Positions 2,254 to 22,327 of a stretch of 22,327 bases of DNA are shown here, piece by piece; the stretch's first letter is position 1; every line of letters starts with the position of its first letter. The DNA lies in IMG/VR virus record IMGVR_UViG_3300042691_007854, positions 1 to 22,327 of that record; one strand, 5' to 3'. A program made the position numbers and the translations under genes. Under the pieces are notes generated by a model, which searched no databases, was not told the DNA's origin, and saw nothing but the letters and a program-made list of their open reading frames with translations. This DNA is from a virus.

Positions 2254-2329
2254 TGGAGCGGGAAATCGGACTCGAACCGACGACATTCTGCTTGGCAAGC
2301 AGGCATTCTACCAACTGAATTACTCCCGC
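2254..2329 (-). tRNA. tRNA-Gly(GCC)
   Basis: The acceptor GCGGGAG pairs with TTCCCGC. The discriminator is U and CCA is encoded. The anticodon loop TTGCCAA reads GCC, the T loop is GTTCGAGTC, and the D arm is intact. It lies 21 bases downstream of a -10 box and upstream of the 243-residue gene. Confidence 0.95.
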
Positions 2330-2350
2330 ATGATATTACTTATATAAACA

Positions 2351-2379
2351 ATTATACGTCAGTTTTATTTGCAAGACAA
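2351..2379 (-). promoter_or_regulatory. Sigma-70-like promoter before tRNA-Gly(GCC)
   Basis: The minus strand reads TTGTCT (2379-2374), a 17-base spacer, then TATAAT (2356-2351). The -10 is perfect and the -35 matches 4 of 6. It lies just after a terminator hairpin and upstream of tRNA-Gly, so it starts the unit tRNA-Gly, 243-aa gene, 129-aa gene. Confidence 0.75.
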
Positions 2380-2390
2380 ATAAACGTGAA

Positions 2391-2415
2391 AAGGGCAGAG
2401 GATCACCCTGCCCTT
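2391..2415 (-). terminator. Intrinsic terminator after the YkuK-like gene
   Basis: AAGGGCAG pairs perfectly with CTGCCCTT around a 9-base loop. On the minus strand the hairpin is followed by TTCACGTTTATTT, a weak U tract. It closes the unit that ends with the gene at 2452-2928 and separates it from the promoter at 2379. Confidence 0.75.
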
Positions 2416-2451
2416 CTCTGGTATTTTGTAAAATATGTTTATTATGATAAA

Positions 2452-2928
2452 TCATGCTGCTCGATGCATAGCCCACTTTAATCTGTCTGCGGCATATGAC
2501 GCTGCGAATGCATTCGGTTTTACCATCGGCACGACATTACACATTCCACGAATGTAACCAACTGCTTCGTTTATCACACAAGATGATCCATGCATTTCAT
2601 TTGGATTAATATCTAAATGTACTTCTACGTATCTATCCTCTAAAACTTCATGTAATCTGTTGTACATTTCTGCAATTTTATAGACCTCGTTCATTAGACG
2701 CATCCGAGGACGATCTATTTTTTGATCATAATCTCTTTCTCGTTGAATTTCACCAAAGATTTTACATCCATTATTGCCATTAATATGAACAACTATAGCC
2801 ATTGTATAATCTGCATACCAAACATTACCAATTAAAAATCTCTCAGAATCTCCACCAATATAAATCTTTGTTTCAGGATTCTGCTTATCAATAAATGATT
2901 TCACTTCTTCGATGTCTAGTTGTTTCAT
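2452..2928 (-). CDS. YkuK-like RNase-H-fold protein (DUF458)
   Basis: The 158-residue protein resembles Bacillus YkuK and the DUF458 family of RNase-H-like proteins. It has YIGGDSE at 23-29 (family form IGTDS), VHLDINPNE at 103-111, and VGYIRGMCNVVPMVKPNAFAASYAADR at its C-terminus, which matches the family's ending of GRI.SMG..P.IKPDAFVAS..A.R. The acidic residues D27, E81, D106 and D148 are spaced like an RNase H metal-binding quartet. Family members are assumed to act on nucleic acid, but I know of no proven substrate. ATG at 2928 has AGGA 7 bases upstream, directly after tRNA-Gly(UCC). It is the last gene before the terminator at 2391-2415. Confidence 0.8.
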   Translation of the reverse strand: MKQLDIEEVKSFIDKQNPETKIYIGGDSERFLIGNVWYADYTMAIVVHINGNNGCKIFGEIQRERDYDQKIDRPRMRLMNEVYKIAEMYNRLHEVLEDRYVEVHLDINPNEMHGSSCVINEAVGYIRGMCNVVPMVKPNAFAASYAADRLKWAMHRAA

Positions 2929-2945
2929 TATATTTCCTAATAATT

Positions 2946-3019
2946 TGGAGCGGGATGCGAGAATCGAACTCGCAACAACAGATTGGAAATCTGTAGTTTT
3001 ACCATTAAACTAATCCCGC
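2946..3019 (-). tRNA. tRNA-Gly(UCC)
   Basis: The acceptor GCGGGAT pairs with ATCCCGC, with discriminator U and encoded CCA. The anticodon stem ACAGA/TCTGT encloses TTTCCAA, so the anticodon is UCC. It is the second glycine tRNA of the window and reads GGA and GGG codons. Confidence 0.95.
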
Positions 3020-3026
3020 ATTACTG

Positions 3027-3100
3027 TGGCTACCCAGCAGGGACTCGAACCCCGACCAACAGTTTTGGAGACTGGTATGCTGCCATTACACTACTGAGTA
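3027..3100 (-). tRNA. tRNA-Trp(CCA)
   Basis: The acceptor TACTCAG pairs with CTGGGTA, so it begins with an unusual U1-A72 pair. The anticodon loop CTCCAAA reads CCA, the discriminator is G as expected for Trp, and CCA is encoded. Seven bases separate it from tRNA-Gly(UCC). Confidence 0.92.
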
Positions 3101-3111
3101 AAAATAATAAA

Positions 3112-3657
3112 TTATTTTATCCATACAAATGTCTGATCGAATACAGACATATTGTTTATTATATTGTTTTCTTTTCTAAACTGATCAACAACATGTTTTA
3201 TAGAATTGTAGTCATGACCAGAGAATATGCCACCAGTTTTAACCTTAGGATACCATCTATTTAGTTCTTCAAGAGCATGTTTTTGATTTATGTATGAGTC
3301 TACAAAAATAAAATCTAATTCATTATTTTCAATAAGATCTACAGAGTTCTCTGAAGTATCTTCTACAAATAATACTTTATTCTGTAAGCCTGTTGACATG
3401 ATATTGGTTAATGCACGAATTTTAACCTGCATTATCATATCTGAATCAACCACCATTGATTCTTCATCAATAGTATCAACATAAGGTTGATATGGATCTA
3501 TACCGTATAATGTTTTGATTCTTGGACAACACTCCAATAAAGAACAGAATGTATGTGCTTCCCATAATCCAATTTCGGCACCAACAATATGTTCCTGTGG
3601 TAGTAAATTGATTAAATGAATTATACTTTGTCCATCGGATTCTCTATAATTTATCAT
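3112..3657 (-). CDS. Class I SAM-dependent methyltransferase (Methyltransf_24-like)
   Basis: A Rossmann methyltransferase of about 181 residues. Motif I is VGAEIGLWEAHTF, followed by LYGIDPY with an acidic residue after strand 2, LFVEDTSENS, then LDFIFVDSYINQKHALEELNRWYPKVKTGGIFSGHDY. That last block (FVDs.H....L..D...W...L..GG...GHDY) is typical of the Methyltransf_24 group often found with sugar or glycan modification genes. I chose ATG at 3657, which overlaps the upstream stop as ATGA; an upstream TTG at 3669 is less likely. It forms an operon with the two oxygenases upstream and ends 12 bases before tRNA-Trp. The methyl acceptor is unknown. Confidence 0.85.
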   Translation of the reverse strand: MINYRESDGQSIIHLINLLPQEHIVGAEIGLWEAHTFCSLLECCPRIKTLYGIDPYQPYVDTIDEESMVVDSDMIMQVKIRALTNIMSTGLQNKVLFVEDTSENSVDLIENNELDFIFVDSYINQKHALEELNRWYPKVKTGGIFSGHDYNSIKHVVDQFRKENNIINNMSVFDQTFVWIK

Positions 3658-4289
3658 ATTGGTATCCAATGATTTATATCAATTAGATGATGTTGTTTAA
3701 GGAAAAGAATTTCGGTAGGAACGATATCAAATGCTACCGTTATTCTCGGTTCGTCAGAATGCCATTCACTGCTTCTATGTTTATCTCTACCGCTTGAACT
3801 AAGAACTAATAAGTTATTTTTACTCTCTACATGAATATCATCTTCTGGAACCTTTCTTCCATCTATTCTGTAAATAGTTTCAGAATTTGGTTCTACATTA
3901 ACACAATAAAACCCATGCCATGAATGATCATTAGTTGGCCAATGGCTATGCCAGTTAATAGCGTTACCTTTTTGATAGAAATTTACCCAGCATTGAATAT
4001 GATACTCGTCGAACAGTTGGACATTATGTTTCTTTTCTCTAATTATAAAATGGAAAGAATCTTTTATATTTTCGTAAAGGTTTGTCATTCCTGGGATAGG
4101 AGACATCAAATAATTATATTTTGAGAAGTATTTTGTTATTAATTGTTGGTCTTCATCTAAGTCTGGTACATCTGGTATGAATGTATCCATAACATAATTA
4201 TACATTATGTTGGCATTTCGCTTTTGTTGATACAGATCTAAATCTAGAATTCTAGTGTAGACATAATCATCAATCTCATTTATATCCAT
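3654..4289 (-). CDS. Putative 2OG-Fe(II) oxygenase, 211 aa
   Basis: The C-terminal half has the layout of a double-stranded beta-helix dioxygenase. WHSH at 113-116 gives a possible HxH in place of the usual HxD metal pair. This is followed by HGFYCVNV, a segment of about 35 residues, then KHRSSEWH (H171 or H177 as distal histidine) and PRITVAFDI, where R182 would bind 2-oxoglutarate. The family resembles the putative 2OG-Fe(II) oxygenases common in T4-like marine phages. The N-terminal 80 residues are helical and unassigned. The start at 4289 lies 8 bases after the next oxygenase gene, and the stop overlaps the methyltransferase start. The substrate is unknown. The iron ligand set is the least certain point. 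Confidence 0.65.
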   Translation of the reverse strand: MDINEIDDYVYTRILDLDLYQQKRNANIMYNYVMDTFIPDVPDLDEDQQLITKYFSKYNYLMSPIPGMTNLYENIKDSFHFIIREKKHNVQLFDEYHIQCWVNFYQKGNAINWHSHWPTNDHSWHGFYCVNVEPNSETIYRIDGRKVPEDDIHVESKNNLLVLSSSGRDKHRSSEWHSDEPRITVAFDIVPTEILFLKQHHLIDINHWIPI

Positions 4290-4297
4290 AATTATCT

Positions 4298-4906
4298 CTA
4301 GTTATAAAGAAAAGTATAATTTACTTTTCTGTTATTTTGTCCATCTTTGAATCTCGCCAGCTGTGACTCATGTTCAATATCAGAATAGAATATCATCGCT
4401 CTGTTATATCTGTATGGAATATGTACACTTTTATCTTTCGATACATGGATCAATACTCCATTATAATCATCAGAGGTTTCCTCAATACATTCGTCTGGTG
4501 TGCACCAAATGTTAAAGGTGATTTTTGCTTTAGGATCTATATGTCGTTGCACACTACTAACTTGTTTATTGTCATGAACGAACATCCAACCACGAGTATA
4601 TTCTAAATCTTTTAGACAATTAAATTTCTCTTTTATTTCTTCTGAAACATTTGTTAAAAGAGGGAACCATATATTCATACCATCTTTTGAAAAATTTATG
4701 GCAGTATAATCTTCATACTTATCATCATATTCATCTGCGTGTAAACCAAAATTTCTCAATCGCTGGCAGTATTCTTCTTTTAAAAAATTATCAACTATGG
4801 CAACTTTATTCTTTAAGAACTCAGCTTCAACATGGCTAAAATCGTTATTATTTAATACTGTGTCATCTAGTTTTTTATAGTTAAAAATGTCTTCACTAAT
4901 TATCAT
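4298..4906 (-). CDS. 2OG-Fe(II) oxygenase, 202 aa
   Basis: A canonical iron dioxygenase signature is visible. RHID at 121-124 gives the HxD pair (H122, D124), the distal histidine is H179 in DIEHES, and R193 in NNRKVNYTFLY is the likely 2-oxoglutarate ligand. Between them, KITFNIWCTPDE and NRAMIFYSD look like beta-helix strands. It is preceded by AIVDNFLKEEYCQRLRNF, a helix seen at the start of prolyl-hydroxylase-like folds. ATG at 4906 has a GGGGT ribosome site next to tRNA-Leu(UAG). It heads a three-gene block with the other oxygenase and the methyltransferase. The substrate is not predictable from sequence. Confidence 0.8.
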   Translation of the reverse strand: MIISEDIFNYKKLDDTVLNNNDFSHVEAEFLKNKVAIVDNFLKEEYCQRLRNFGLHADEYDDKYEDYTAINFSKDGMNIWFPLLTNVSEEIKEKFNCLKDLEYTRGWMFVHDNKQVSSVQRHIDPKAKITFNIWCTPDECIEETSDDYNGVLIHVSKDKSVHIPYRYNRAMIFYSDIEHESQLARFKDGQNNRKVNYTFLYN

Positions 4907-4921
4907 ATTTTACCCCATAGT

Positions 4922-5004
4922 TGGTGCCCCAAGAGAGACTCGAACTCTCACGCTTAAGCACTGGCTTCTAAGACCAGCGTGTCTACCAATTCCACCATCG
5001 GGGC
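4922..5004 (-). tRNA. tRNA-Leu(UAG)
   Basis: A class II tRNA with a long variable arm. The acceptor GCCCCGA pairs with TTGGGGC. The anticodon stem CTGGT/GCCAG encloses CTTAGAA, giving UAG. The D loop has GG, and CCA is encoded with discriminator A, as expected for leucine. Confidence 0.93.
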
Positions 5005-5020
5005 ATAATGCTACTTATCT

Positions 5021-5098
5021 TGGTCCGAGTGGTAGGATTCGAACCTACGACCCTCTGCTCCCAAAGCAGATGCGCTAACCAGACTGCGCTACACTCGG
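5021..5098 (-). tRNA. tRNA-Pro(UGG)
   Basis: The acceptor CCGAGTG pairs with CACTCGG, the anticodon loop TTTGGGA reads UGG, discriminator A and CCA are present, and the T loop is GTTCGAATC. It begins three bases after the end of the AsnB-like gene, so the tRNA must be cut from that transcript. Confidence 0.95.
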
Positions 5099-5101
5099 CT
5101 A

Positions 5102-6637
5102 TTAAATTAAATTTCTATCTTTAAGATACTCTTCAAATTTAAATTCGTATCCATTGATTATAAATCTTTCTTTATTTGTAAAACTTACTAACTTCTGATT
5201 TCTAGTCAACCAATCTTCTATATGAAGATCTCCTCCACGTGTTTTTTCTACAAACTCTGTATCAGGATAAGCATCCTTGTATATTCTATCTCGTACATCA
5301 AATCCATTCATTTTAGTATTTTTATATTCTTCTAAGAATATAGGATTTCTGACGTATGACAATAGAGTCCTTGATGTAGTAAAATTATACCAGTCTGGAT
5401 TATGAAATTTAATAAACTCATTATTGTGTGGAATTGGTATTTTTCCATTAATCAATTTAAATTCTGATCCTGCCCCAGACAAGAATACTCCATTAAATCC
5501 ATTCTGTCTCTGACGATCCATTAACCAGTGCATATAATAGCTATTACATATTACATAAACTATGTTTTTATTTAATGACCAATCTAGAACTTGCGCATAG
5601 AATTTTGTTTCTTCGAGATAAATTGGTTCATGGGGTATTTTCCATTCTTTACAAAAACTAGTGCTCACTTCATTATTATAATCTGAGTAGTCAGCTGCAT
5701 GAACATAAGTTCCTGCATTAAATTTAATTCCCAATTCTATTAAACTTCTCGCTACAAATCTGCTATCATTTCCCCCACTAAAAATAACAAAAACATCTTT
5801 ACCTTTACATAAAGTATAAAAATGATCTAACACTTCTTGTTTAAAAGATTTCAAATTGTTTTCTACAGAAAAATCTATATCAATATCACATCTGTTAGTG
5901 TTCACAAAATAATAGTTTAATTTTTTATTTTGTTTAATATTGTCCAGATCTAACTCGAAATCTTCACTTATAAAAATGTTAGAATTAAGTTGTTTTAGTG
6001 TTGGTAAGACATTTTTATTAAAAGACTCTCTGATTTCTTTGTCGCTATCTTTAAGAGTTCTTCCATAATTTTCCTCTCTACATCTAGACAATAATAATCT
6101 ATTTGTAAATACATTAACAAATGACGTTCGTTCAGATAATAAAAATGGATCTGGTCTTAAATAAATTTTTTTATTTTCTATTTTATAATCTGAATTAAAT
6201 CCACTTAAAAATAATCCTACGTATCCAGTCTTTGATTTATGATCAATAAGATAATGTATGTAATAGGAAGTCAAAAGCTGGTAAATGACACCTCGGTGGG
6301 CATAATAGTTTATTTGGTTTAATATCGTTCTTCTACTAATAAAAACTATCTCGTAATCTATGTTATTTAAGATACAAAATTGTTTTTCGAGTCTACAATC
6401 AGAATTATCTCTTTTAAAAGATCCAATCAAACATGTGAAAGGTATGTTAAGTTCTAATAAGATATTTGCTAACAGTTTACTGTTTTGGTCACCATTAAAA
6501 AGAAGTGTTATATTATTTCTGTTGTAAATAGAATTTACGTAGACAAGCAACTCTTCTTTATATGATTTCAAATCATCAATATTAGAAGAATCTAATTCTA
6601 CAACAAATCTGTTATCGTGGACAAAACTATATTTCAT
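5102..6637 (-). CDS. Tandemly duplicated asparagine-synthase-like PP-loop protein
   Basis: This 511-residue protein consists of two homologous halves about 240 residues apart. The C-terminal half has an intact PP-loop SGGNDSR at 287-293 and an AsnB-like FLSGAGSE around S387. The N-terminal half carries the matching but degenerate NGDQNSK at 48-54 and LFLSGFNSD around S145. Other aligned pairs are SYYIHYLIDHK/SYYMHWLMDRQ and FTNRLLLS/TTSRTLLS. PP-loop ATP pyrophosphatases adenylate a substrate and then transfer an amide or sulfur group. No glutaminase domain is seen. The start at 6637 has no clear ribosome site and lies 13 bases from the 3' end of tRNA-Thr. The gene sits alone between tRNA genes. 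The acceptor molecule is unknown. Confidence 0.75.
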   Translation of the reverse strand: MKYSFVHDNRFVVELDSSNIDDLKSYKEELLVYVNSIYNRNNITLLFNGDQNSKLLANILLELNIPFTCLIGSFKRDNSDCRLEKQFCILNNIDYEIVFISRRTILNQINYYAHRGVIYQLLTSYYIHYLIDHKSKTGYVGLFLSGFNSDYKIENKKIYLRPDPFLLSERTSFVNVFTNRLLLSRCREENYGRTLKDSDKEIRESFNKNVLPTLKQLNSNIFISEDFELDLDNIKQNKKLNYYFVNTNRCDIDIDFSVENNLKSFKQEVLDHFYTLCKGKDVFVIFSGGNDSRFVARSLIELGIKFNAGTYVHAADYSDYNNEVSTSFCKEWKIPHEPIYLEETKFYAQVLDWSLNKNIVYVICNSYYMHWLMDRQRQNGFNGVFLSGAGSEFKLINGKIPIPHNNEFIKFHNPDWYNFTTSRTLLSYVRNPIFLEEYKNTKMNGFDVRDRIYKDAYPDTEFVEKTRGGDLHIEDWLTRNQKLVSFTNKERFIINGYEFKFEEYLKDRNLI

Positions 6638-6650
6638 AGTATGTATTTAT

Positions 6651-6724
6651 TGGTGCCCCGTGACAGAATCGAACTGCCAATAGATGATTACAAATCAACT
6701 GTTATACCATTTAACTAACAGGGC
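6651..6724 (-). tRNA. tRNA-Thr(UGU)
   Basis: The acceptor GCCCTGT pairs with ACGGGGC, with two G-U pairs. The anticodon loop TTTGTAA reads UGU, and the anticodon stem GTTGA/TCATC has one T-T mismatch. CCA is encoded. Confidence 0.9.
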
Positions 6725-6729
6725 AAATT

Positions 6730-6804
6730 TGGCTCCAGAGGCAGGGATCGAACCTACGACCAATTGATTAACAGTCAACTGCACTACCGCTGTGCTACTC
6801 TGGA
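6730..6804 (-). tRNA. tRNA-Asn(GUU)
   Basis: The acceptor TCCAGAG pairs with CTCTGGA, the anticodon loop CTGTTAA reads GUU, discriminator G matches asparagine, and CCA is encoded. Like the Trp tRNA it starts with U. Confidence 0.94.
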
Positions 6805-6809
6805 ACATA

Positions 6810-6883
6810 TGGTTGCGGAGGGCGGAATCGAACCACCAACTGAAGCATATGAAACTTCTGAGATACCGTTTCTCTACTCCGCT
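6810..6883 (-). tRNA. tRNA with CAU anticodon, atypical acceptor (Met or Ile)
   Basis: The anticodon stem GAAGT/GCTTC encloses TTCATAT, so the anticodon is CAU. Counting from the conserved T8-A9 and from TTCGATTC in the T loop, the acceptor is AGCGGAG against CTCCGCA, leaving A1 opposite A72 unpaired. The D stem GAGA/TCTC has A11-U24. Both features recall bacterial initiator tRNA, but the three G-C pairs of the initiator anticodon stem are absent. It could be Met, or Ile if the cytosine is modified to lysidine. CCA is encoded. Confidence 0.88.
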
Positions 6884-6889
6884 GTATTC

Positions 6890-6974
6890 TGGTGGGTTGC
6901 CAGGGAATCGAACCCCGTATGCCTGAGGCGACAGATTTACAGTCTGCTGAAGTCACCAATGCTTCTCGCAACCC
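6890..6974 (-). tRNA. tRNA-Tyr(GUA)
   Basis: A class II tRNA with a long variable arm, 85 bases. The acceptor GGGTTGC pairs with GCAACCC, the loop CTGTAAA reads GUA, and discriminator A and CCA are present. Confidence 0.94.
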
Positions 6975-6976
6975 AA

Positions 6977-7052
6977 TGGTACTCGGTGGGGGAATCGAAC
7001 CCCTCCTTACTGCCGTGAAAGGGCAGTGTCCTAACCGATAGACGAACCGAGC
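6977..7052 (-). tRNA. tRNA-Glu(UUC)
   Basis: The anticodon stem CTGCC/GGCAG encloses CTTTCAC, giving UUC. The acceptor GCTCGGT pairs with ACCGAGT, with a G1-U72 wobble. CCA is encoded. It is the first tRNA behind the promoter at 7164-7192, after a structured leader of about 105 bases. Confidence 0.94.
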
Positions 7053-7157
7053 AAATTGGTAGTTTTTATCAAGAACTACCAAACTCGCTTGCATGGGATG
7101 TGTTCCCTGCCTCATGCTTCGTATTTACCGTAGACTTAGAGAGGACTTTCAGAAGAG
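7053..7157 (-). ncRNA. Structured leader or possible small stable RNA before tRNA-Glu
   Basis: This transcribed gap between the -10 box and tRNA-Glu has no credible gene. On the minus strand GCAT, a six-base bulge and GGGA pair with the continuous arm TCCCATGC (about 7090-7116). A second hairpin has a perfect 9-bp stem, TTGGTAGTT/AACTACCAA (7056-7082), with a 9-base loop and TTT after it. It could be a tRNA-precursor leader, an attenuator or a small RNA like those in the T4 tRNA cluster. I cannot choose between these. Confidence 0.4.
7056..7082 (-). other. Perfect 9-bp hairpin upstream of tRNA-Glu
   Basis: TTGGTAGTT and AACTACCAA flank a nine-base loop. On the minus strand it is followed by TTTG, three bases before the tRNA 5' end. 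It may guide RNase P processing or act as a weak terminator or attenuator. Confidence 0.6.
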
Positions 7158-7163
7158 AATATA

Positions 7164-7192
7164 ATTCTACATTAAAAATAATTAAATGTCAA
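7164..7192 (-). promoter_or_regulatory. Sigma-70-like promoter for the tRNA-Glu cluster
   Basis: A perfect TTGACA (7192-7187), a 17-base spacer, then TAGAAT (7169-7164), one mismatch from consensus. It lies 9 bases after tRNA-Cys and should drive Glu, Tyr, CAU, Asn and Thr tRNAs and perhaps the AsnB-like gene behind them. Confidence 0.75.
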
Positions 7193-7200
7193 CAACTTTC

Positions 7201-7278
7201 TGGAACACACGACTGGATTCGAACCAGTGACTTTACAGTTTTGCAGACTGTTGCATTTGACCACTCTGCCACGTGTGC
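7201..7278 (-). tRNA. tRNA-Cys(GCA)
   Basis: The anticodon stem ACAGT/ACTGT encloses CTGCAAA, giving GCA. The acceptor GCACACG pairs with CGTGTGT, discriminator U73 fits cysteine, and CCA is encoded. Confidence 0.94.
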
Positions 7279-7285
7279 ATAATTA

Positions 7286-7360
7286 TGGTGGGTCTGCTAG
7301 GAATTGAACCTAGACTCAACCGATTATGAGTCGGCTGCTTTACCATTAAGCTACAGACCC
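7286..7360 (-). tRNA. tRNA-Met(CAU), possibly Ile(LAU)
   Basis: The acceptor GGGTCTG pairs fully with CAGACCC. The anticodon stem GCCGA/TCGGT encloses CTCATAA, giving CAU. Discriminator A and CCA are present. It is a normal elongator-type molecule. Whether it is charged with Met or, after lysidine modification, with Ile cannot be read from the gene alone. The T loop is TTCAATT rather than TTCGA. Confidence 0.9.
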
Positions 7361-7361
7361 A

Positions 7362-7437
7362 TGGCACGACTGGCAGGGATCGAACCTGCGACCCACAGCT
7401 TAGAAGGCTGTTGCTCTATCCACTGAGCTACAGTCGT
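7362..7437 (-). tRNA. tRNA-Arg(UCU)
   Basis: The acceptor ACGACTG pairs with CAGTCGT, the anticodon stem ACAGC/GCTGT encloses CTTCTAA, giving UCU, discriminator G is present and CCA is encoded. It reads AGA and AGG codons, a common choice of AT-rich phages. Confidence 0.95.
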
Positions 7438-7444
7438 AAAACTT

Positions 7445-7529
7445 TGGTGCGAGTAGCCAGAATCGAACTGGCATGACTTGCGTCGAGAGATTTTAAGTCT
7501 CTTGTGTCTACCTATTTCACCATACTCGC
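7445..7529 (-). tRNA. tRNA-Leu(UAA)
   Basis: A class II tRNA of 85 bases. The acceptor GCGAGTA pairs with TACTCGC, the anticodon stem AGAGA/TCTCT encloses CTTAAAA, giving UAA, discriminator A, CCA encoded. It is the first tRNA after the promoter at 7545-7573. Confidence 0.95.
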
Positions 7530-8324: not shown

Positions 8325-8819
8325 TCAATGATCCACTTTGGTTGTAACAATGTTGCACTTTTCAAGAAATTCTAGTCCTGCAGTATCACGATATGAATTC
8401 CTATAGTAAACTTTCTTTATTCCAGCCCCATACATTATCTTAGCACAATGGATGCAGGGAGCATGAGTGCAAAATATATCTGCACCATTGCCACTATCAC
8501 CACTCTTTGCTAATTTACTAATTGCATTTGCTTCGGCATGGATTACTTCATCTTTTGTTTTTAAACGATACCAACCATTGTCAGTACCAGTGAATCCCAT
8601 TCGTTTCATTTCATCTGGAGATGGGATTTGTTCGTCGCCACCGACATATTCAGTATATTCACATTCATTAGACCAACCAGATGGCATACCATTATATCCA
8701 ATTGAGATGATACGATTGTCTTTTACGACAACCGCACCGACCTTTAATCTTCTGGCACTGGAAAGTTGAGCAAACCTCTCTGCAGTGTCCATAAATGCAT
8801 CTATCCACTTCTGTTTCAT
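8325..8819 (-). CDS. cd: dCMP deaminase
   Basis: This enzyme deaminates dCMP to dUMP, feeding dTMP synthesis in the host cytoplasm during phage replication. The 164-residue protein has VGAVVVKDNRIISIGYNGMP near the N-terminus and the zinc signature HAEANAI (H94, catalytic E96) followed by THAPCIHCAK (C122, C125). The 40-residue insert between these blocks, with NECEYTEYVGGDEQ, is as in T4-type dCMP deaminases. ATG at 8819 overlaps the stop of the secreted-protein gene as ATGA. Its place behind a cassette of exported proteins is unexpected, but it is common to all members of this long transcript. Confidence 0.93.
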   Translation of the reverse strand: MKQKWIDAFMDTAERFAQLSSARRLKVGAVVVKDNRIISIGYNGMPSGWSNECEYTEYVGGDEQIPSPDEMKRMGFTGTDNGWYRLKTKDEVIHAEANAISKLAKSGDSGNGADIFCTHAPCIHCAKIMYGAGIKKVYYRNSYRDTAGLEFLEKCNIVTTKVDH

Positions 8820-9826
8820 TGTAGGAATACCTTCACTTCTTTCATATTCTTTGCAATTTTATTATCTACTTTAAATCTAGGATTTATATTCTGAGTCTCA
8901 TCTACGTATAAAATTAATGCAGGTTGATTAAAAGTTTTCTTGTACGATTTAAAGAAGTTGTGATATCTTCTTTCTCCTGGATATACAAACTCGTATCCAG
9001 AAAAATCTAATTCAGCTTTGTATAGCAAGTGGTTGGCTCCATCTGCAATACCAACAACTACTACTTTTGGTGTTCTAGGTAACTTAGCGAAATCAACTCC
9101 AATGTTATTACACTCAATGAAACTACCACGTCTCCCAGAAAAACAGACCATCATTTCTTCCTTCATTTGGATATATTCTGGTTCTCCAAAAGCACCAACC
9201 AATACTGCAGCGACAGGATTGCTTCCTATCAAAGAGCTAACAATGCTACCATGAATGCTAGAATATGTATTCGTAGTAGTTGACCCCTTCTCATCAATCA
9301 CATGTGCAAATGATTTTATATCAGAGACCCACTTCGGCTGCAACTTCAAAGAAACATCAATACTTACTATGGTTTCTTCTCTGCCTATAACATAGGAAGG
9401 TTTACTCACGCTAACAGAAACTGCCTGATTGACATTATCTAATCTGTCAACAACTTTTCTTCGTTCCTCAAATTCTACAAACATTGGGGTAAATTCAGCA
9501 GACTGCTTATTGTGTATCCTATTATCTTTTTTAGGTTCTACATCAGCTAAAATAGTCACATGATGAAGACCATAGTCATCTCTATTACGTTGTATAACTT
9601 TATGAGATTTTATGATTCCTGCATTATATTGATCTATACTCTCGCTGTACTGTTTTTGTTTATAGTTTTTTTCGGATATAATAAACGTACTTGCAACCTG
9701 CTCAATGGCTTCTTGTTTAGCGTTTTGTAATGCAGAGTCGTAACTGTTTCCGACACCAGTAACAGTTACTTCCACTGCAAAAGCCACGCTAGATGATAAC
9801 ATCAAAGCGAGGGCTAATGTTTTCAT
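8816..9826 (-). CDS. Secreted FlgT/LPP20-like protein, 336 aa
   Basis: The N-terminus MKTLALALMLSSSVAFA is a classic Sec signal with cleavage after residue 17. Residues 18 to 100 resemble the FlgT N-terminal or LPP20 fold: VTVTGVGNSYDSALQNAKQ, an EAIEQV helix, then the ILADVEP strand. The rest has beta-rich segments and PNPAVLVG-like small-residue turns near residue 205, with two cysteines (CFSGRRGSFIEC) that may form a disulfide. It should act in the periplasm or at the outer membrane of a Gram-negative host. It overlaps both neighbours by ATGA. The downstream gene is dCMP deaminase. The function is not known; a link to curli-like or pore-like assemblies is only a guess. Confidence 0.7.
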   Translation of the reverse strand: MKTLALALMLSSSVAFAVEVTVTGVGNSYDSALQNAKQEAIEQVASTFIISEKNYKQKQYSESIDQYNAGIIKSHKVIQRNRDDYGLHHVTILADVEPKKDNRIHNKQSAEFTPMFVEFEERRKVVDRLDNVNQAVSVSVSKPSYVIGREETIVSIDVSLKLQPKWVSDIKSFAHVIDEKGSTTTNTYSSIHGSIVSSLIGSNPVAAVLVGAFGEPEYIQMKEEMMVCFSGRRGSFIECNNIGVDFAKLPRTPKVVVVGIADGANHLLYKAELDFSGYEFVYPGERRYHNFFKSYKKTFNQPALILYVDETQNINPRFKVDNKIAKNMKEVKVFLQ

Positions 9827-10368
9827 TGTGCGAAGGAATTCTTTAGCTGAGAGGCAACATTCATGGATCGTTTATCAACTTGTACGCTGACTGCGACGTT
9901 CTTTCCATCAGTAGAAACTTTTCGTTCTACAATATATGCACCACGAACTATACCATTGGCTTCGACAGCAATCTTCTCTTGAATCTTGGTTGTTAAATCA
10001 GCTGCTTTGCGTTTTGCATTACTGTCGTTTTCTTTCATATCAGCTGCAAGAGCATTGGTGATAGTTTCACTAGCCTTAGATGACTTGAGATCTGTCTGAA
10101 TAAATTCAACGATGTTACGCTTTGCACGCATAGCTGCAACATTCATACCTTGTTCGACACCAGCATCGTTCTCGATTGGAACAAATGATGTAGCAGAAGA
10201 TTTGATAGTTTCCCAGTCACCTCTGTCATTAAATGTAACTTCAACTTTACCAAAATCTCTTGCGTACTTATTTCCTTCTGGAGTTTGATCTACAGCAACT
10301 TTGGTAGTGGTACTGCAAGCACTCATTGTAAGTGCTAAGATTGATACAAGAACTAATCGCTTATTCAT
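9823..10368 (-). CDS. LPP20-like lipoprotein, 181 aa
   Basis: The N-terminus has a lipoprotein signal with TMSAC, so C18 is the likely lipidated residue. The mature protein begins STTTKVAVDQT and contains GMNVAAMRAKRNIVEFIQTDL at about 95, a helix typical of LPP20-type lipoproteins, then IVRGAYIVERKV and VAVSVQVDK strands. It would be anchored in a membrane and exposed to the periplasm or surface. ATG at 10368 has AAGGA 9 bases upstream. Its partner in the same operon is the FlgT-like secreted protein, which shares this fold type. Phage-encoded lipoproteins often block superinfection, but nothing here proves that role. Confidence 0.75.
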   Translation of the reverse strand: MNKRLVLVSILALTMSACSTTTKVAVDQTPEGNKYARDFGKVEVTFNDRGDWETIKSSATSFVPIENDAGVEQGMNVAAMRAKRNIVEFIQTDLKSSKASETITNALAADMKENDSNAKRKAADLTTKIQEKIAVEANGIVRGAYIVERKVSTDGKNVAVSVQVDKRSMNVASQLKNSFAQ

Positions 10369-10383
10369 AATATATTTTCCTTA

Positions 10384-10695
10384 TTAACGTAATGTATATG
10401 AGTATACTACTGCATCTGGTTTGTTATATGCTTCTATAACACGTTTACGCATCTCAGGGTCTGAGAGTTTGTAACCTAACCTGTCTGGGGACTTAGGGTC
10501 AACCAATCCCTGTTCCTCTTGTTTAACTTCAACAGGTGTAACAACTGACACATCATCTTGCTTAACTACAACAGGCACAACTGGTACAACAACTGGCATG
10601 GTAAATCTCGACTTTATAGAATTCCACTCAGTATTAAAATCGAGTGCCACAGCATTAGTCGAAACCAAACACAAGACTACTAAGGTGAATCTCAT
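10384..10695 (-). CDS. Small exported protein with Val/Pro-rich segment, 103 aa
   Basis: I do not recognise the family. MRFTLVVLCLVSTNAVA is a Sec signal with cleavage after residue 17. The mature part is about 86 residues: LDFNTEWNSIKSRF, then a valine/proline-rich stretch (MPVVVPVVPVVVK), an acidic linker, and a C-terminus of SDPEMRKRVIEAYNKPDAVVYSYTLR. ATG at 10695 overlaps the stop of the 42-residue membrane protein, with AAGGAG upstream. The context of two more exported proteins downstream suggests a joint envelope function. Confidence 0.75.
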   Translation of the reverse strand: MRFTLVVLCLVSTNAVALDFNTEWNSIKSRFTMPVVVPVVPVVVKQDDVSVVTPVEVKQEEQGLVDPKSPDRLGYKLSDPEMRKRVIEAYNKPDAVVYSYTLR

Positions 10696-10820
10696 TTCAC
10701 GTTCTCCTTAATAATAACTTTAGCATTATCAATTTGTTTATCGGCAAAATTTGCAAGACCACTAAAACCAACTGTGGCAACTACCAGTCCAAGAACAAAT
10801 CCGATGAGTAAGTTTGTCAT
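10692..10820 (-). CDS. Single-TM small protein, 42 aa
   Basis: The gene is short but well supported. ATG at 10820 follows the upstream stop by one base and its TGA overlaps the next ATG. The protein starts MTNLLIGFVLGLVVATVGFS, one transmembrane segment at about 4-24, and ends with a charged helix DKQIDNAKVIIKENVK. Orientation and partner are unknown. It heads the four-gene exported/membrane block. Confidence 0.8.
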   Translation of the reverse strand: MTNLLIGFVLGLVVATVGFSGLANFADKQIDNAKVIIKENVK

Positions 10821-10821
10821 A

Positions 10822-11568
10822 TTACGCCTGACTATCAATTGATTCCTGTGCCTGCATTTCTTCACCATCAAGCATAGGCATATCGGATAGATAACCCATT
10901 TCAGTCAGACCTCTCCACTTAATTACATCTTTTGGATCGTAACAATCCCATGAGTCATTGGAGAATTCCATAAAGTGAGCAAACTCCCATCCAGTAGTAG
11001 AAACTTCATACCAACCATCTCGAATAGGAGGAGTTTCTGCAGAAATCCAATCAGTTCTCTCAGCATCACCCCAGTTTGATTCCAACTCGCTAATCATCCA
11101 TTCACGATGCGAGTTTTCCAAGCCAGCAAATTCTACGATATCAGATGGTAGGTTATCGATAGAGTCTTTATCACTAACATCATATTCATGACAATCATCA
11201 TTACCGTTGCTGTATATTCCAGCAAATCCCATTCCTGGTTCATGATAGAGTGCTTCCACATTCCAACCATTTTGAACTAGATAATCATACAATGCAATTG
11301 GTGGTCCCCATGCAGTGTCACAATAGATGGTTAATTCATTATCGTCATCACGAGACCAGTCAATAATATTTGCATCCCACTTTGTTCCCCAATTCGAAAC
11401 TGACCAATCGTACTCCCATTCGCCAGTAGGATTAGGATGCAGGTGTTGGAATGGCTGAGCCATTGAATGTCCATCGGCATTCTTTTTACTCATCTCTGCC
11501 TCAAGAGCATCGATCTTTGTTTTGTCTTCGTGATGAAGACGCATGCTGTTGTCACACCAGTTAGGCAT
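10822..11568 (-). CDS. Api92/YubB-like protein (DUF1281 family), 248 aa
   Basis: The start MPNWCDNSMRLHHED and the block NWGTKWDANIIDWSRDDDNE, then YCDTAWGPPIALYDYLV and YHEPGMGFAGIY, match the pattern of the Api92/YubB ferredoxin-like family (MPNWC.N, WGTKWD, TAW.PP, Y.E.G..F.G) known from phages and plasmids. The biochemical role is unknown. The C-terminal 100 residues are acidic and tryptophan-rich (RDGWYEVSTTGWEFAHF), a display-like extension that some members carry. ATG at 11568 has AAAAGGA upstream. It is the second gene after the strong promoter at 12224-12252. Confidence 0.8.
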   Translation of the reverse strand: MPNWCDNSMRLHHEDKTKIDALEAEMSKKNADGHSMAQPFQHLHPNPTGEWEYDWSVSNWGTKWDANIIDWSRDDDNELTIYCDTAWGPPIALYDYLVQNGWNVEALYHEPGMGFAGIYSNGNDDCHEYDVSDKDSIDNLPSDIVEFAGLENSHREWMISELESNWGDAERTDWISAETPPIRDGWYEVSTTGWEFAHFMEFSNDSWDCYDPKDVIKWRGLTEMGYLSDMPMLDGEEMQAQESIDSQA

Positions 11569-11586: not shown

Positions 11587-12216
11587 TTAGTTAAAAAAAT
11601 CTTCAAGTGTTGCTGGCTTCATTTCAAGAAAAATCTTCATCTGTAATTCTGAATGAATCTTTTTCTTCTCCGACATTTCAAGTGCTGATTGTTCATCAGC
11701 ACAATTCATATCGAATCTTTTTACAATGATACCATAATGCTTGTATCTTTTTCTTGCTTCTGGTATTGTTGTAGCAGTTTTGTGTGTTGCATTAAGTTTA
11801 TCGTTTTCTTCAGAAGTAACAATAACAACTTTATTGTATCTAATTAAATAATCTTTAACTTGTTCAACAGTCTCAAATGCTTGGTTAACTACTTTTTCCT
11901 TAATAATTCCTAATGGAAACTGATGCTCAATATTAAAAACTCGTTTACCTGATTCATATGCTTCTCTTCTCTGTCGTTTGGTTCCACCTAAAGAATTAAA
12001 CTTTTCTATTGCTGATTCACTCCACCATTTACAATTGGCAAGGATGTGAGGTGTAGCATGAGAACAAAATTCGTTTTCACAAGAAATAAAATCAGAAACA
12101 ATTCTGCAATCAATATCAACTGCTTTCTTTTTGGCGTTGACGTGCACTGGTGCAAACTGCATATCATATATGCGTTTTGCAAAGTGATCTACAACATTTT
12201 TCACAGAATCGTTCAT
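11587..12216 (-). CDS. Hypothetical protein, 209 aa, probably leaderless
   Basis: I do not recognise this protein. Segments seen are DIDCRIVSDFISCENEFC, FNIEHQFPLGIIKEKVV, VKDYLIRYNKVVIVTSEEND and KHYGIIVKRFDMN; the last two look like strands of an alpha/beta fold. It has four cysteines between about 37 and 62 (C37, C46, C51, C62). There is no signal or membrane segment. ATG at 12216 lies only seven bases after a perfect TATAAT, so the mRNA should begin at or near the start codon, and no ribosome site is visible. No better downstream start with a ribosome site was found. Confidence 0.75.
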   Translation of the reverse strand: MNDSVKNVVDHFAKRIYDMQFAPVHVNAKKKAVDIDCRIVSDFISCENEFCSHATPHILANCKWWSESAIEKFNSLGGTKRQRREAYESGKRVFNIEHQFPLGIIKEKVVNQAFETVEQVKDYLIRYNKVVIVTSEENDKLNATHKTATTIPEARKRYKHYGIIVKRFDMNCADEQSALEMSEKKKIHSELQMKIFLEMKPATLEDFFN

Positions 12217-15005: not shown

Positions 15006-15587
15006 TTAATAATGTTCTATATTAAATGCAATAGAAATTCTATCAGTATCTGTTTTGTTTGCAAAAACACCATGCCTAATCCACGGCTCAAATGTAATCA
15101 TCAATCCAGAAACTGGCGTGATTAAATGATGGTCTGCGACAGGAAGTTTATTTTGTATCCTATACTGATCCCTCTGCGGTATTTGATCAGGAATAGAAAA
15201 ACAACCAGAATCATTTGTATTATCAGAATTAACATAATAAGTTCCAGACAGCAGAGAACCAAAATGATAATGTTCCTGCTCTAAAGAATTTTTACCGAAT
15301 ACATTTAACCAAGAAACGATATAAAAGTCTCTAATATCATGCCCAATAGCGAACAAATGTGTTATAGCATTTGCTGTTATTAATTCTTTTAGTTCTTGCA
15401 AATTTGCAGTTTCTAGAAAGTTTTCATCTTTGGAAAAAGTAGTTCGAACATTTTCTGTTTTTGGATAATGTAAACTATTGTCTGGACTATTGATATAACT
15501 ATAGACCTTTTCTTTTGTTATGTCTCTAATATTATTAGGAATATTATCCATTCCAATCATCAATGGAGAATATTCCTGAAACATCAT
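15006..15587 (-). CDS. 2OG-Fe(II) oxygenase (PF13759-like), 193 aa
   Basis: The block SWLNVFGKNSLEQEHYHFGSLLSGTYYV is characteristic of this family, with HYH (H106, H108) in place of HxD. GLMITFEPWIRHGVFANKTDTDRISIAFNIEH supplies the distal H172 and R183 for 2-oxoglutarate. The family is common in T4-like marine phages; the substrate is unproven. ATG at 15587 overlaps the DsbA-like gene stop. It is the last gene of the unit and is followed by the hairpin at 14976-15004. It lies between the dsbA-like and rnh genes, which are neighbours in T4. Confidence 0.88.
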   Translation of the reverse strand: MMFQEYSPLMIGMDNIPNNIRDITKEKVYSYINSPDNSLHYPKTENVRTTFSKDENFLETANLQELKELITANAITHLFAIGHDIRDFYIVSWLNVFGKNSLEQEHYHFGSLLSGTYYVNSDNTNDSGCFSIPDQIPQRDQYRIQNKLPVADHHLITPVSGLMITFEPWIRHGVFANKTDTDRISIAFNIEHY

Positions 15588-18907: not shown

Positions 18908-19354
18908 TTAATCGTTTCTAGTATTTCTTGCTACTGGATCTCCAGGTTCAAGACCAAAAGATGGTTGTGACATACCCATCGGCATTCCCATAGGTCTTGG
19001 TGGCATTCCCATGCCACTCATCGATGGCGCAGATGGAGTTGATGTAGATGCTGGTTTATTTGTCCAGCCAGCATTAGCAGCAGTTAATGCTTGTTTTTGC
19101 GCATCTTTATCATTTCCTGCTAACATAATACCAGATAATGTACCTGTTAAAAATGTAGCAATAGGAATAATCAACTCAAAGAATTTTTGATCTATAGGAC
19201 TGATAGCGTTCAAAGGTTGTGTTACAAAAATAATAGAGTAGAGAACAACAAAAACAATACCAGTTAATGTTAGTGCTAGACATACGCCAATAAAAAAGCG
19301 TAGACGAGCCATCAGCTGATCTTCACTATACATAAATGGTTGATTATTTTCCAC
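18908..19354 (-). CDS. Membrane protein with Met/Pro/Gly-rich tail, 148 aa
   Basis: I chose the GTG at 19354 because AAGGAG lies six bases upstream; the ATG at 19408 would overlap the upstream gene by 65 bases and the ATG at 19333 has no ribosome site. Two transmembrane segments at about 20-44 and 58-80 are followed by a cytoplasmic or periplasmic tail ASTSTPSAPSMSGMGMPPRP with repeated MGMP steps. No family is recognised. It overlaps the 92-residue gene by 11 bases. Confidence 0.7.
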   Translation of the reverse strand: MENNQPFMYSEDQLMARLRFFIGVCLALTLTGIVFVVLYSIIFVTQPLNAISPIDQKFFELIIPIATFLTGTLSGIMLAGNDKDAQKQALTAANAGWTNKPASTSTPSAPSMSGMGMPPRPMGMPMGMSQPSFGLEPGDPVARNTRND

Positions 19355-19622
19355 AGTTGGCTCCTTGAGAAACAAGTGCTGGATTTGCTCCAGTAGGTTT
19401 TTGATCATCTGGCATTCCTAATCTAGGGTCTCTTCCACCCTTAAAAACATGTTCAGGACAAGTTCTTGTCACATCACATAATGGTTTTTGACAAATATCT
19501 TTATCCCAGTTTGCTGGGTTCTGACATGGGTATCTGAACGAATCTCCACCGAAAATCGCAAGACCCAATGGTAATACGATAAGTACACCAAGCCATTTAA
19601 ATAATTTTATATCGTTCAACAT
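19344..19622 (-). CDS. Cysteine-rich membrane-anchored or exported protein, 92 aa
   Basis: MLNDIKLFKWLGVLIVLPLG is a signal or anchor. The remaining 65 residues contain C33, C44, C49, C55 and C90, in a YPCQNPANWDKDICQKPLCD pattern. They may form disulfides outside the cytoplasm. No family is recognised. It stands between two membrane proteins of the same module and ends in an 11-base overlap with the GTG start of the next gene. Confidence 0.75.
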   Translation of the reverse strand: MLNDIKLFKWLGVLIVLPLGLAIFGGDSFRYPCQNPANWDKDICQKPLCDVTRTCPEHVFKGGRDPRLGMPDDQKPTGANPALVSQGANCGK

Positions 19623-20149: not shown

Positions 20150-20353
20150 TTATACGTTTCTTTCTAGTTGTTTTGCGATACTTCGCATTTTAATTAAATC
20201 AGAGGCACTTGGACCATTCTGTTTTTTTTCCAATTCAACTTTAATTTCTTCCTGTTCTTTAATTTTGTAATAAAACAAATAGGCTGAAATTAATACCATA
20301 ATTTCCAAAAGATAAAATATTAAAAATGATTCAAAAAATAAAGTTATCTCCAT
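20150..20353 (-). CDS. Small membrane protein, 67 aa
   Basis: MEITLFFESFLIFYLLEIMV begins a hydrophobic region to about residue 29, then comes a basic/acidic helix KIKEQEEIKVELEKKQNGPS and MRSIAKQLERNV. ATG at 20353 overlaps the stop of the large exported protein by 10 bases. Function unknown. Confidence 0.7.
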   Translation of the reverse strand: MEITLFFESFLIFYLLEIMVLISAYLFYYKIKEQEEIKVELEKKQNGPSASDLIKMRSIAKQLERNV

Positions 20354-22327
20354 TGTTGATTAACCATTTCTTCGTGTAATCTATCAGAACCACTAAACAT
20401 TCTACGAACACTAGTTGATTTGTTGTCAATTACTTCTTTACCATATTGCCTTTGTAATTGTCTTTGTAAAACATCAGGAACATTTGCCTGTGCATAGGTA
20501 TTAAATCCTGGAACAAAACTCATAGCACTAATCACATTTGGTTGAATTGCCACTTGACTTTCAAATGTCTTAGCAGATTCTACTCTACTCATTTCTTGTT
20601 TTGCTTTTTCATTTGATGCTTGCTTCATTTCAATATTAGATTTACCTTCATTAGTTCCAGATTTTTGTTCTCCTCGCTCTGCTCTTGGTTCTGTTCTGGA
20701 TTCCTGTTTAGGTTCTGCTCTTGCTGATTGTTGTGGCTGTTGCCTTTCGTTTGTGGATGCTGTATTTCTGGTTTCTGTTTTATTTGTTTGTTGCGTTTGA
20801 GCAGATCCTTGATTATTAGTATTTGTGTTAGCACTTTGTTGTCCTCCTGCTGGCGCTAATTGAACAGTAGCAGTAGCGTCTGGTGCGACAGATGTTGTTT
20901 TTGTTTCAATAACACCATCAACATTACTATCACCTGTTTTTGAAATTTCTGTTTTTACTCTACCATCGTTAGAAACAGTTGTAGTTGGTTCTGTTCTTGA
21001 TGGTTTACTTTCTGTCGTTTGAGTAGTGCTTGTATTATTCAATAAGTTTTTCTTAGCATACGCTTCTGCATATCCTGGACACGATTGAGAATATAAAGGA
21101 TTTAATGTACACTGTTGTGTTAAGTATGCCGATTGATAACCAGCACATGACTGAGAATATAAAGGATTAATATTACATTGCGCTTGAGTATATCCAGGAC
21201 ATGCTGGGTCAAATAATGGATTTAATGTGCATTGTTGTGTTTGATATGCAGCTGCATAGCCAGCACATGACTGACTTGATAATGGATTTGATATGCATGG
21301 GTCTGGTGTATAGACAGCACTACTCCACATATTGTTTATGGTTGCTGTTCCTAAAGTCCATTCTGACATAGCAAATGCACCAAGAGATGATATTGGTAAA
21401 GAAGAACTTAATCTGTAATTATTTGTGTAGTTACCACTAACTACATTGTTACCACCATTATGTGTTGTAGTGTCAGAGTATATGGTTGCATTGTTGCTAT
21501 CTGTAATAACAGTAGCTACACCAGCATCAGAATAGTTCCATCCTGTTAGACATAATCCAAATAAATCAAACATTGCGCATTGTCTTCCAGGAACATTATA
21601 CGAATAGCCATAATCAAATCCGTGGATAGTAGCACCAGCACCAGCAAAAGATAAAGCAGACGCTATTGCATACGCTTGTGTTCCTGATGTTCCTGGAAGT
21701 AAATTCCCACTTATTATTGCATTATATCCAGGACATGAAGGTGAGTAGCCTGGATTAGCAATACATGGATCTACTGTATACTGTAAACTTAATGATGGAT
21801 TACGAACTTGTGGTCCATAATATCCTGCCCAAAATTTAGCATCTTTACCTGTAAATGATAGTTCTAAATTAGATAAATTTGATAATGGATAATTTTGAGG
21901 AAACCACTCAGTGCCAGAATAATTTATAAATCCACCTGATTGTTGTGGGTAGTTATAATTATATGTTTGAAGAGCATTTCCCCCAGAATCTTTTAATATA
22001 ACTTTACCTGTTAATGTTCCATACTGCCCAGTTGCTGGATCATTGTTAATATTCCAAGAGTAATTATATCCACCGACTTGTATTCCTGTTCCAGACAATG
22101 CTTGATTGATGGCAATTGTTTGTGCAGCAGTAGCCATTGTGTAACCAAAAATTATAGTGTTAGTTCCAGGATTAAATGCTGGTGTGGTGCCACCAGAGAA
22201 TCCACCATTTTGACCTTGAACAGTTCCAGTCCAAGCATTTACTGTTGGATTTAATAAATTTTGTGATTGTGTATATGTTGAAATAGGAGATTGTTGAGCA
22301 AACACGCTACTACTGATTAATAACAAT
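20344..22327 (-). CDS. Large exported protein with Cys-repeat and duplicated beta domain (5' end outside window)
   Basis: The frame is open to the window edge, about 660 residues visible. The first visible codons end in a signal peptide (ISSSVFA, then QQS), so only a few residues are missing. Two similar beta-rich domains, at about 50-185 and 215-340, end each in YT.DPC. After them come C-x2-N-P-x5-C-x-G-Y repeats, then a linker rich in Q, N, T, S, R and E (about 430-580), and a conserved-looking end with SFVPGFNTYAQANVPDVLQRQLQR. It is probably a surface or virion-associated adhesin-type protein. No homologous domain name can be given with confidence. Confidence 0.8.
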   Translation of the reverse strand, partial: LLLISSSVFAQQSPISTYTQSQNLLNPTVNAWTGTVQGQNGGFSGGTTPAFNPGTNTIIFGYTMATAAQTIAINQALSGTGIQVGGYNYSWNINNDPATGQYGTLTGKVILKDSGGNALQTYNYNYPQQSGGFINYSGTEWFPQNYPLSNLSNLELSFTGKDAKFWAGYYGPQVRNPSLSLQYTVDPCIANPGYSPSCPGYNAIISGNLLPGTSGTQAYAIASALSFAGAGATIHGFDYGYSYNVPGRQCAMFDLFGLCLTGWNYSDAGVATVITDSNNATIYSDTTTHNGGNNVVSGNYTNNYRLSSSLPISSLGAFAMSEWTLGTATINNMWSSAVYTPDPCISNPLSSQSCAGYAAAYQTQQCTLNPLFDPACPGYTQAQCNINPLYSQSCAGYQSAYLTQQCTLNPLYSQSCPGYAEAYAKKNLLNNTSTTQTTESKPSRTEPTTTVSNDGRVKTEISKTGDSNVDGVIETKTTSVAPDATATVQLAPAGGQQSANTNTNNQGSAQTQQTNKTETRNTASTNERQQPQQSARAEPKQESRTEPRAERGEQKSGTNEGKSNIEMKQASNEKAKQEMSRVESAKTFESQVAIQPNVISAMSFVPGFNTYAQANVPDVLQRQLQRQYGKEVIDNKSTSVRRMFSGSDRLHEEMVNQQWR
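21049..21303 (-). repeat. Tandem C-x2-NP-x5-C-x-GY repeats (4 units)
   Basis: Four units with first cysteines at residues 344, 366, 384 and 406 of the visible protein, 22, 18 and 22 residues apart. Each has C-x2-N-P, then a second C ten residues after the first, then A/P-G-Y. A fifth, isolated unit stands at 21721-21765 after the first beta domain (C188). The DNA shows matching 54-66 base spacing. Confidence 0.85.

Follow-up and report, generated by a model that had tools for sequence, protein, structure and literature searches.

Why lytic aquatic phages should export envelope proteins is a question raised by a cassette of four genes for membrane and exported proteins in an uncultured phage. 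The stretch of DNA that we analysed, referred to here as the window, is a 22,327-base IMG/VR record of a T4-like phage fragment with RNase H, DUF6433, dCMP deaminase and 14 tRNA genes. The RNase H of the window is at most ~42% identical to those of isolates, of which Synechococcus phages and the Methylophilales phage Melnitz come closest. A T4-type major capsid protein is encoded in long relative records (160-163 kb), and the capsid protein of the one that we compared shares ~63% identity with those of Synechococcus phages and Melnitz. The carriers of the cassette are uncultured T4-like (Kyanoviridae-related) aquatic phages.

Other features of the window, all on the minus strand, were recorded alongside the cassette. 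The 14 tRNA genes (2254-7529) fall into several clusters, the last of which has a near-consensus promoter, TTGACT-17-TATAAT (7573-7545), directly 5′ of it. Between two of the clusters lies a gene for a 511-aa protein (5102-6637) made of two tandem halves, the second carrying an SGGNDS motif typical of PP-loop ATP pyrophosphatases (asparagine-synthase-like); it had no Pfam or PHROG match at E 0.01. The protein encoded at 7574-8287 matches Asp_Arg_Hydrox (E 4e-7) and is 2-oxoglutarate/Fe(II) oxygenase-like, and by eye so are those at 3654-4289, 4298-4906 and 15006-15587. At the far end, a 660-aa protein (20344-22326), which may extend past the window end, has a signal-peptide-like N-terminus and repeated Cys motifs (DPCI.NP..S.SC.GY) and no match in Pfam or PHROG; two small membrane or exported open reading frames (19344-19622 and 18908-19408) adjoin its gene.

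The cassette itself, also on the minus strand, comprises TM42 (10692-10820), a 42-aa single-pass membrane protein; EX103 (10384-10695), a 103-aa exported protein with the signal peptide ...NAVA/LDF; LP181 (9823-10368), a 181-aa lipoprotein with the lipobox MSAC; and FT336 (8816-9826), a 336-aa secreted protein with the signal peptide ...VAFA/VEV. It is flanked on the TM42 side by a gene for an Api92-like (MPNWCDN) protein (10822-11568, −), whose end is 1 nt from TM42, and is followed by its usual downstream neighbour, dCMP deaminase (8325-8819, −). A preliminary description, made from the letters alone, had all four genes overlapping and sharing a strong early-type promoter. All four open reading frames are indeed present, with 4-nt overlaps at TM42/EX103, LP181/FT336 and FT336/dCMP deaminase, but a 15-nt gap that contains a ribosome-binding site lies between EX103 and LP181. 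The promoter is likewise of the type described, a sigma-70 TTGACA-17-TATAAT (12252-12224, −) with 12/12 consensus matches, but it sits two genes further upstream, before a 209-aa protein gene (11587-12216, −) and the Api92-like gene. Since it precedes these two genes, it presumably serves as the early promoter of a longer unit of the 209-aa gene, the Api92-like gene, the cassette and dCMP deaminase. The 209-aa gene is probably an insertion in the window; its product has a weak PHROG match of unassigned function, and it had no relative among the other loci compared, being found at this locus in the window only.

To follow the cassette in relatives, we ran five sequence and profile scans of IMG/VR for LP and FT, the families of LP181 and FT336. 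The widest LP scan returned 107 relatives, and clustering of LP at 97% identity left 48 non-redundant loci with enough flank. We found that FT directly follows LP in 48/48 of these, mostly with a 4-nt overlap, and that EX and/or TM are present in 47/48, one locus having neither. EX103 is found in 30/48 loci and TM42 relatives, detected by HMM, in 27/48, with all four genes together in 10/48. The co-occurrence expected from the preliminary description was thereby borne out, and close relatives carry orthologues of all four genes in unchanged order. TM42 is mobile: it stands ahead of EX103, immediately ahead of LP, or in between LP and FT, and the module persists despite this shuffling. Where enough sequence was available, the cassette in most loci lies between RNase H/DUF6433 and dCMP deaminase, with the Api92-like gene of relatives upstream or downstream of it. 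A promoter with at least 11/12 consensus matches and a 17-nt spacer was present within 130 nt 5′ of the first cassette gene in 17/48 loci, against 1.4 expected from the overall rate; no late-type TATAAATA was found just 5′ of the cassette in the loci scanned. Wherever computable, dN/dS of the four genes was 0.11-0.39, a sign of purifying selection. The existence and conservation of the cassette are confirmed. A second LP subtype of 217-225 aa with a longer insert occurs at four loci (L067, L071, L080 and L090), where TM42 is present and EX103 absent. Sequence searches with LP181, FT336, EX103 and divergent members gave no match in 50,697 isolate phages, and TM42 gave chance-level matches only. 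The LP profile found no homologue in 84,980 bacterial and archaeal species (one genome each), so no host source is evident.

LP181 and 33 other aligned members all have a lipobox, and the residue at position +2 is Ser (as in LP181), Ala or Gly, never Asp. Under the E. coli sorting rule, a +2 residue other than Asp is that of outer-membrane lipoproteins. The +2 residues are thus as expected for outer-membrane sorting, and LP is probably directed there. An AlphaFold model of LP181, built on a shallow alignment of 34 LP proteins from the loci, reached moderate confidence (pLDDT 74.4) and showed an alpha/beta Lpp20-like fold with a helical insert. In Foldseek against the PDB, its best match was the Helicobacter pylori lipoprotein Lpp20 (5ok8; E 2.7e-4, probability 1.00), with Tip-alpha, HP1454 and 9hmf lower down the list. 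The TM-score to 5ok8 was 0.50 by target length, and scores near 0.5 speak of fold similarity, not of assembly. LP181 thus resembles Lpp20 and Tip-alpha in overall fold but differs from Lpp20 in its long helical insert, in an identity of 15% and in lacking a match to the Pfam LPP20 model (PF02169).

The FT336 model, built on 39 FT proteins from the loci, was of higher confidence (pLDDT 84.5, pTM 0.72). It has an N-terminal SHS2/FlgP-like domain (residues 18-98) and a beta-rich C-terminal remainder. Within the domain, a helix (29-44) is followed by strands 47-56 and 59-68 and then by strand 70-82, such that the two ten-residue strands form a beta-hairpin insert (47-68) between the SHS2 helix and the second strand; in the LP181 model the corresponding stretch is helical. 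The best Foldseek match in the PDB was 9hmf_A, from the Campylobacter flagellar periplasmic scaffold (E 2.8e-3, probability 1.00), which from its 106-residue length is probably FlgP. The second-ranked match had a probability of 0.11, dodecin appeared further down at 0.96, and FlgT lay outside the top 50. The paper that describes 9HMF (PMC12222027) places FlgP, dodecin, Lpp20 and FlgT in one SHS2-like fold and links ring oligomerisation to an insert that follows the helix and precedes the second strand. The FlgP basal disk of Campylobacter jejuni and FT336 share export and an SHS2-like domain with a beta-hairpin insert at the same place. FT336 differs in its large extra C-terminal region, the lack of a canonical lipobox and of sequence similarity, and in being phage-borne with an early-type promoter, and it is a putative ring former only. 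Among viral predicted structures, the sole convincing matches of FT336 come from uncultured phages and are uncharacterised, apart from one named ‘lipoprotein’. FT members also carry two kinds of Cys pair, neither of which is ever found with one Cys missing (14/14 and 24/24); most members carry one kind and just one protein has both. Such complete pairs fit disulphide-bonded proteins of the oxidising periplasm.

The preliminary description had called two of the proteins LPP20/FlgT-type. Structure prediction upheld folds of LPP20/FlgP type (AlphaFold models against 5ok8 and 9hmf_A), while sequence membership failed. FT336 scored 11.6 bits against PF02169 (E 0.4), under the curated cut-off of 25.9 bits, and no member of either family fell below E 0.1, nor did consensus sequences do better. 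FlgT had no sequence-profile support in LP or FT, and with its structure outside the top 50, the likeness of FT336 to FlgT would be just that of a shared N-terminal fold. Searches of Pfam, NCBIfam, PHROGs, PADLOC and PDB sequences gave no credible family. Because LPP20 membership fails, the likeness of the modelled LP181 and FT336 to LPP20 and FlgP is one of fold and not of family. Of the profiles proposed for comparison, then, Lpp20 and FlgP were recovered as structures, LPP20 stayed below its cut-off and CsgG was absent from the ten relative records and the window proteins scanned. Nor are LP and FT detectable paralogues of each other, as their profile-profile match covers the signal peptide alone.

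The accessory proteins and the pattern of divergence bear on how these parts might fit together. TM42 is probably an inner-membrane anchor with its C-terminus in the periplasm. In EX103, a variable linker rich in Val and Pro joins conserved blocks at the N-terminus (LDFNTEW) and the C-terminus (VDPKSPDRLGYKLSDPEMRKRVIEAYNKPDAVVYS); the protein is a possible periplasmic tether. Between loci whose RNase H is 70-80% identical, mature LP is ~55% identical, the FT N-domain ~46% and the remainder of FT ~23%. A more constant FT core with a fast C-terminal part would suit a protein that touches a partner which itself changes. Beyond locus phylogeny, the distances of LP and FT showed no correlation (partial Mantel 0.02, p 0.36), and so offer no coevolution evidence for direct contact between the two.

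Gene co-occurrence, export signals and the early-type promoter are directly supported, as is, by prediction, the similarity of folds. From here we infer ring formation, membrane topology and function. We propose that the cassette is an early-expressed envelope module in which FT and LP would form a ring under the outer membrane, and we give this reading, including its use in envelope takeover and above all in exclusion of competing phages, a probability of about 0.42. Its constant core would be the outer-membrane-sorted Lpp20-fold lipoprotein and the secreted SHS2 partner. FT would oligomerise via its N-terminal SHS2 domain, and LP would hold the resulting ring or sheet beneath the outer membrane. 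TM42, in the inner membrane, and EX103, as a flexible periplasmic link, would join it to the inner membrane, and FT would touch a variable partner through its fast-evolving C-terminal part. The cassette may plausibly form a ring. That this would be the first phage-encoded periplasmic ring or disk that is anchored in the outer membrane, has a flagellar basal-disk fold and is made early to close or remodel the envelope is a more tentative suggestion.

The use of the module would come soon after infection, and exclusion of rival phages appears its most likely function, being favoured by the early-type promoter and by what other envelope proteins of phages do. T5 Llp, Cor and T4 Imm and Spackle are likewise phage-encoded envelope proteins, and lend the exclusion role by analogy. 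The cassette proteins are nonetheless distinct from them. The match of LP to Cor (phrog_1119) is confined to residues 1-23, the signal peptide, and that to Llp (8a60; E 0.15-0.59) spans residues 1-49 at most, with none in the mature protein. Matches of some LP members to Spackle were sub-threshold and, where located, in the N-terminal signal region. In the relatives' long records, which are possibly incomplete, neither Imm (PF14373) nor Spackle (PF25676) was over its cut-off.

The alternative that fares best, although we consider it unlikely, is that the proteins are envelope factors without a ring, for example a lipoprotein together with a secreted inhibitor, both monomeric, that target an enzyme of the host periplasm. 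In its favour, many proteins share SHS2-like folds and the similarity is at fold level only; the FT model, on the other hand, has the insert associated with ring formers.

Somewhat less likely still is a pore in the outer membrane, for taking up nutrients or for secretion, that functionally replaces the CsgGF of pelagimyophages and Melnitz. CsgG and CsgF are carried by related T4-like phages, where they are read as a pore whose proposed roles are uptake, the export of fibres or the timing of lysis (PMC7029224, PMC9004378), and like the cassette this operon consists of exported envelope genes of T4-like aquatic phages that are functionally unexplained. In the sample tested, CsgG and FT never occurred in the same phage, though this comprised one CsgG phage, and the FT records are possibly fragments: Melnitz has CsgF and CsgG (PF03783, E 4e-50) and lacks FT. 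A link to curli-type pores, raised in the preliminary description, was not sustained, as the CsgG domain that is present in the Melnitz control is absent from ten cassette-bearing relative records and had no match among the window proteins scanned. The cassette differs from CsgGF in proteins, fold and genome neighbourhood. In addition, the FT hairpin (e.g. TFIISEKNYKQKQYSESIDQYN) is polar and shows none of the hydrophobic alternation of membrane strands, which favours a periplasmic ring over a membrane pore. Perhaps the cassette fills a need related to that of CsgGF.

We think it improbable that the cassette acts on the outer membrane to bring about lysis or to time it, either in the manner of spanins or in the way suggested for CsgGF of Melnitz. 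A small membrane protein and a lipoprotein do recall holin/spanin sets, and some LP members match a PHROG of Rz-like spanins, but these matches are confined to the signal-peptide region (residues 1 to ~35), the promoter is early-type, the cassette lies next to genes of nucleotide metabolism, and FT, unlike spanins, is predicted to be a folded SHS2 protein. No GH108 endolysin was over the cut-off in the long relative records, a negative of little weight since these may be incomplete. Equally improbable is mimicry of, or interference with, a host ring such as the flagellar H-ring or basal disk (FlgO/FlgP/FlgT) that disables motility or a surface receptor: an Lpp20-type lipoprotein with a secreted, outer-membrane-associated FlgP/FlgT-type (SHS2) partner resembles flagellar disk and Vibrio H-ring sets (PMC12222027, PMC6375700), but the host may be non-flagellated and the ~85,000 species genomes hold no LP-profile homologue. 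Compared with the Vibrio set, FlgT lay outside the top 50 FT336 matches, and no flagellar genes were seen near the phage cassette.

Our strongest claims are thus that the core of two exported proteins is conserved, has an early-type promoter and is predicted to adopt ring-protein folds, and that two small accessory proteins accompany it. The cassette represents a second, CsgG-free envelope module in a broad group of aquatic T4-like phages with reported curli-type pores. If the ring is true, it would be a case of a phage using a scaffold of flagellar-disk type, and two or four genes would be enough to test directly why envelope proteins are exported by lytic aquatic phages.
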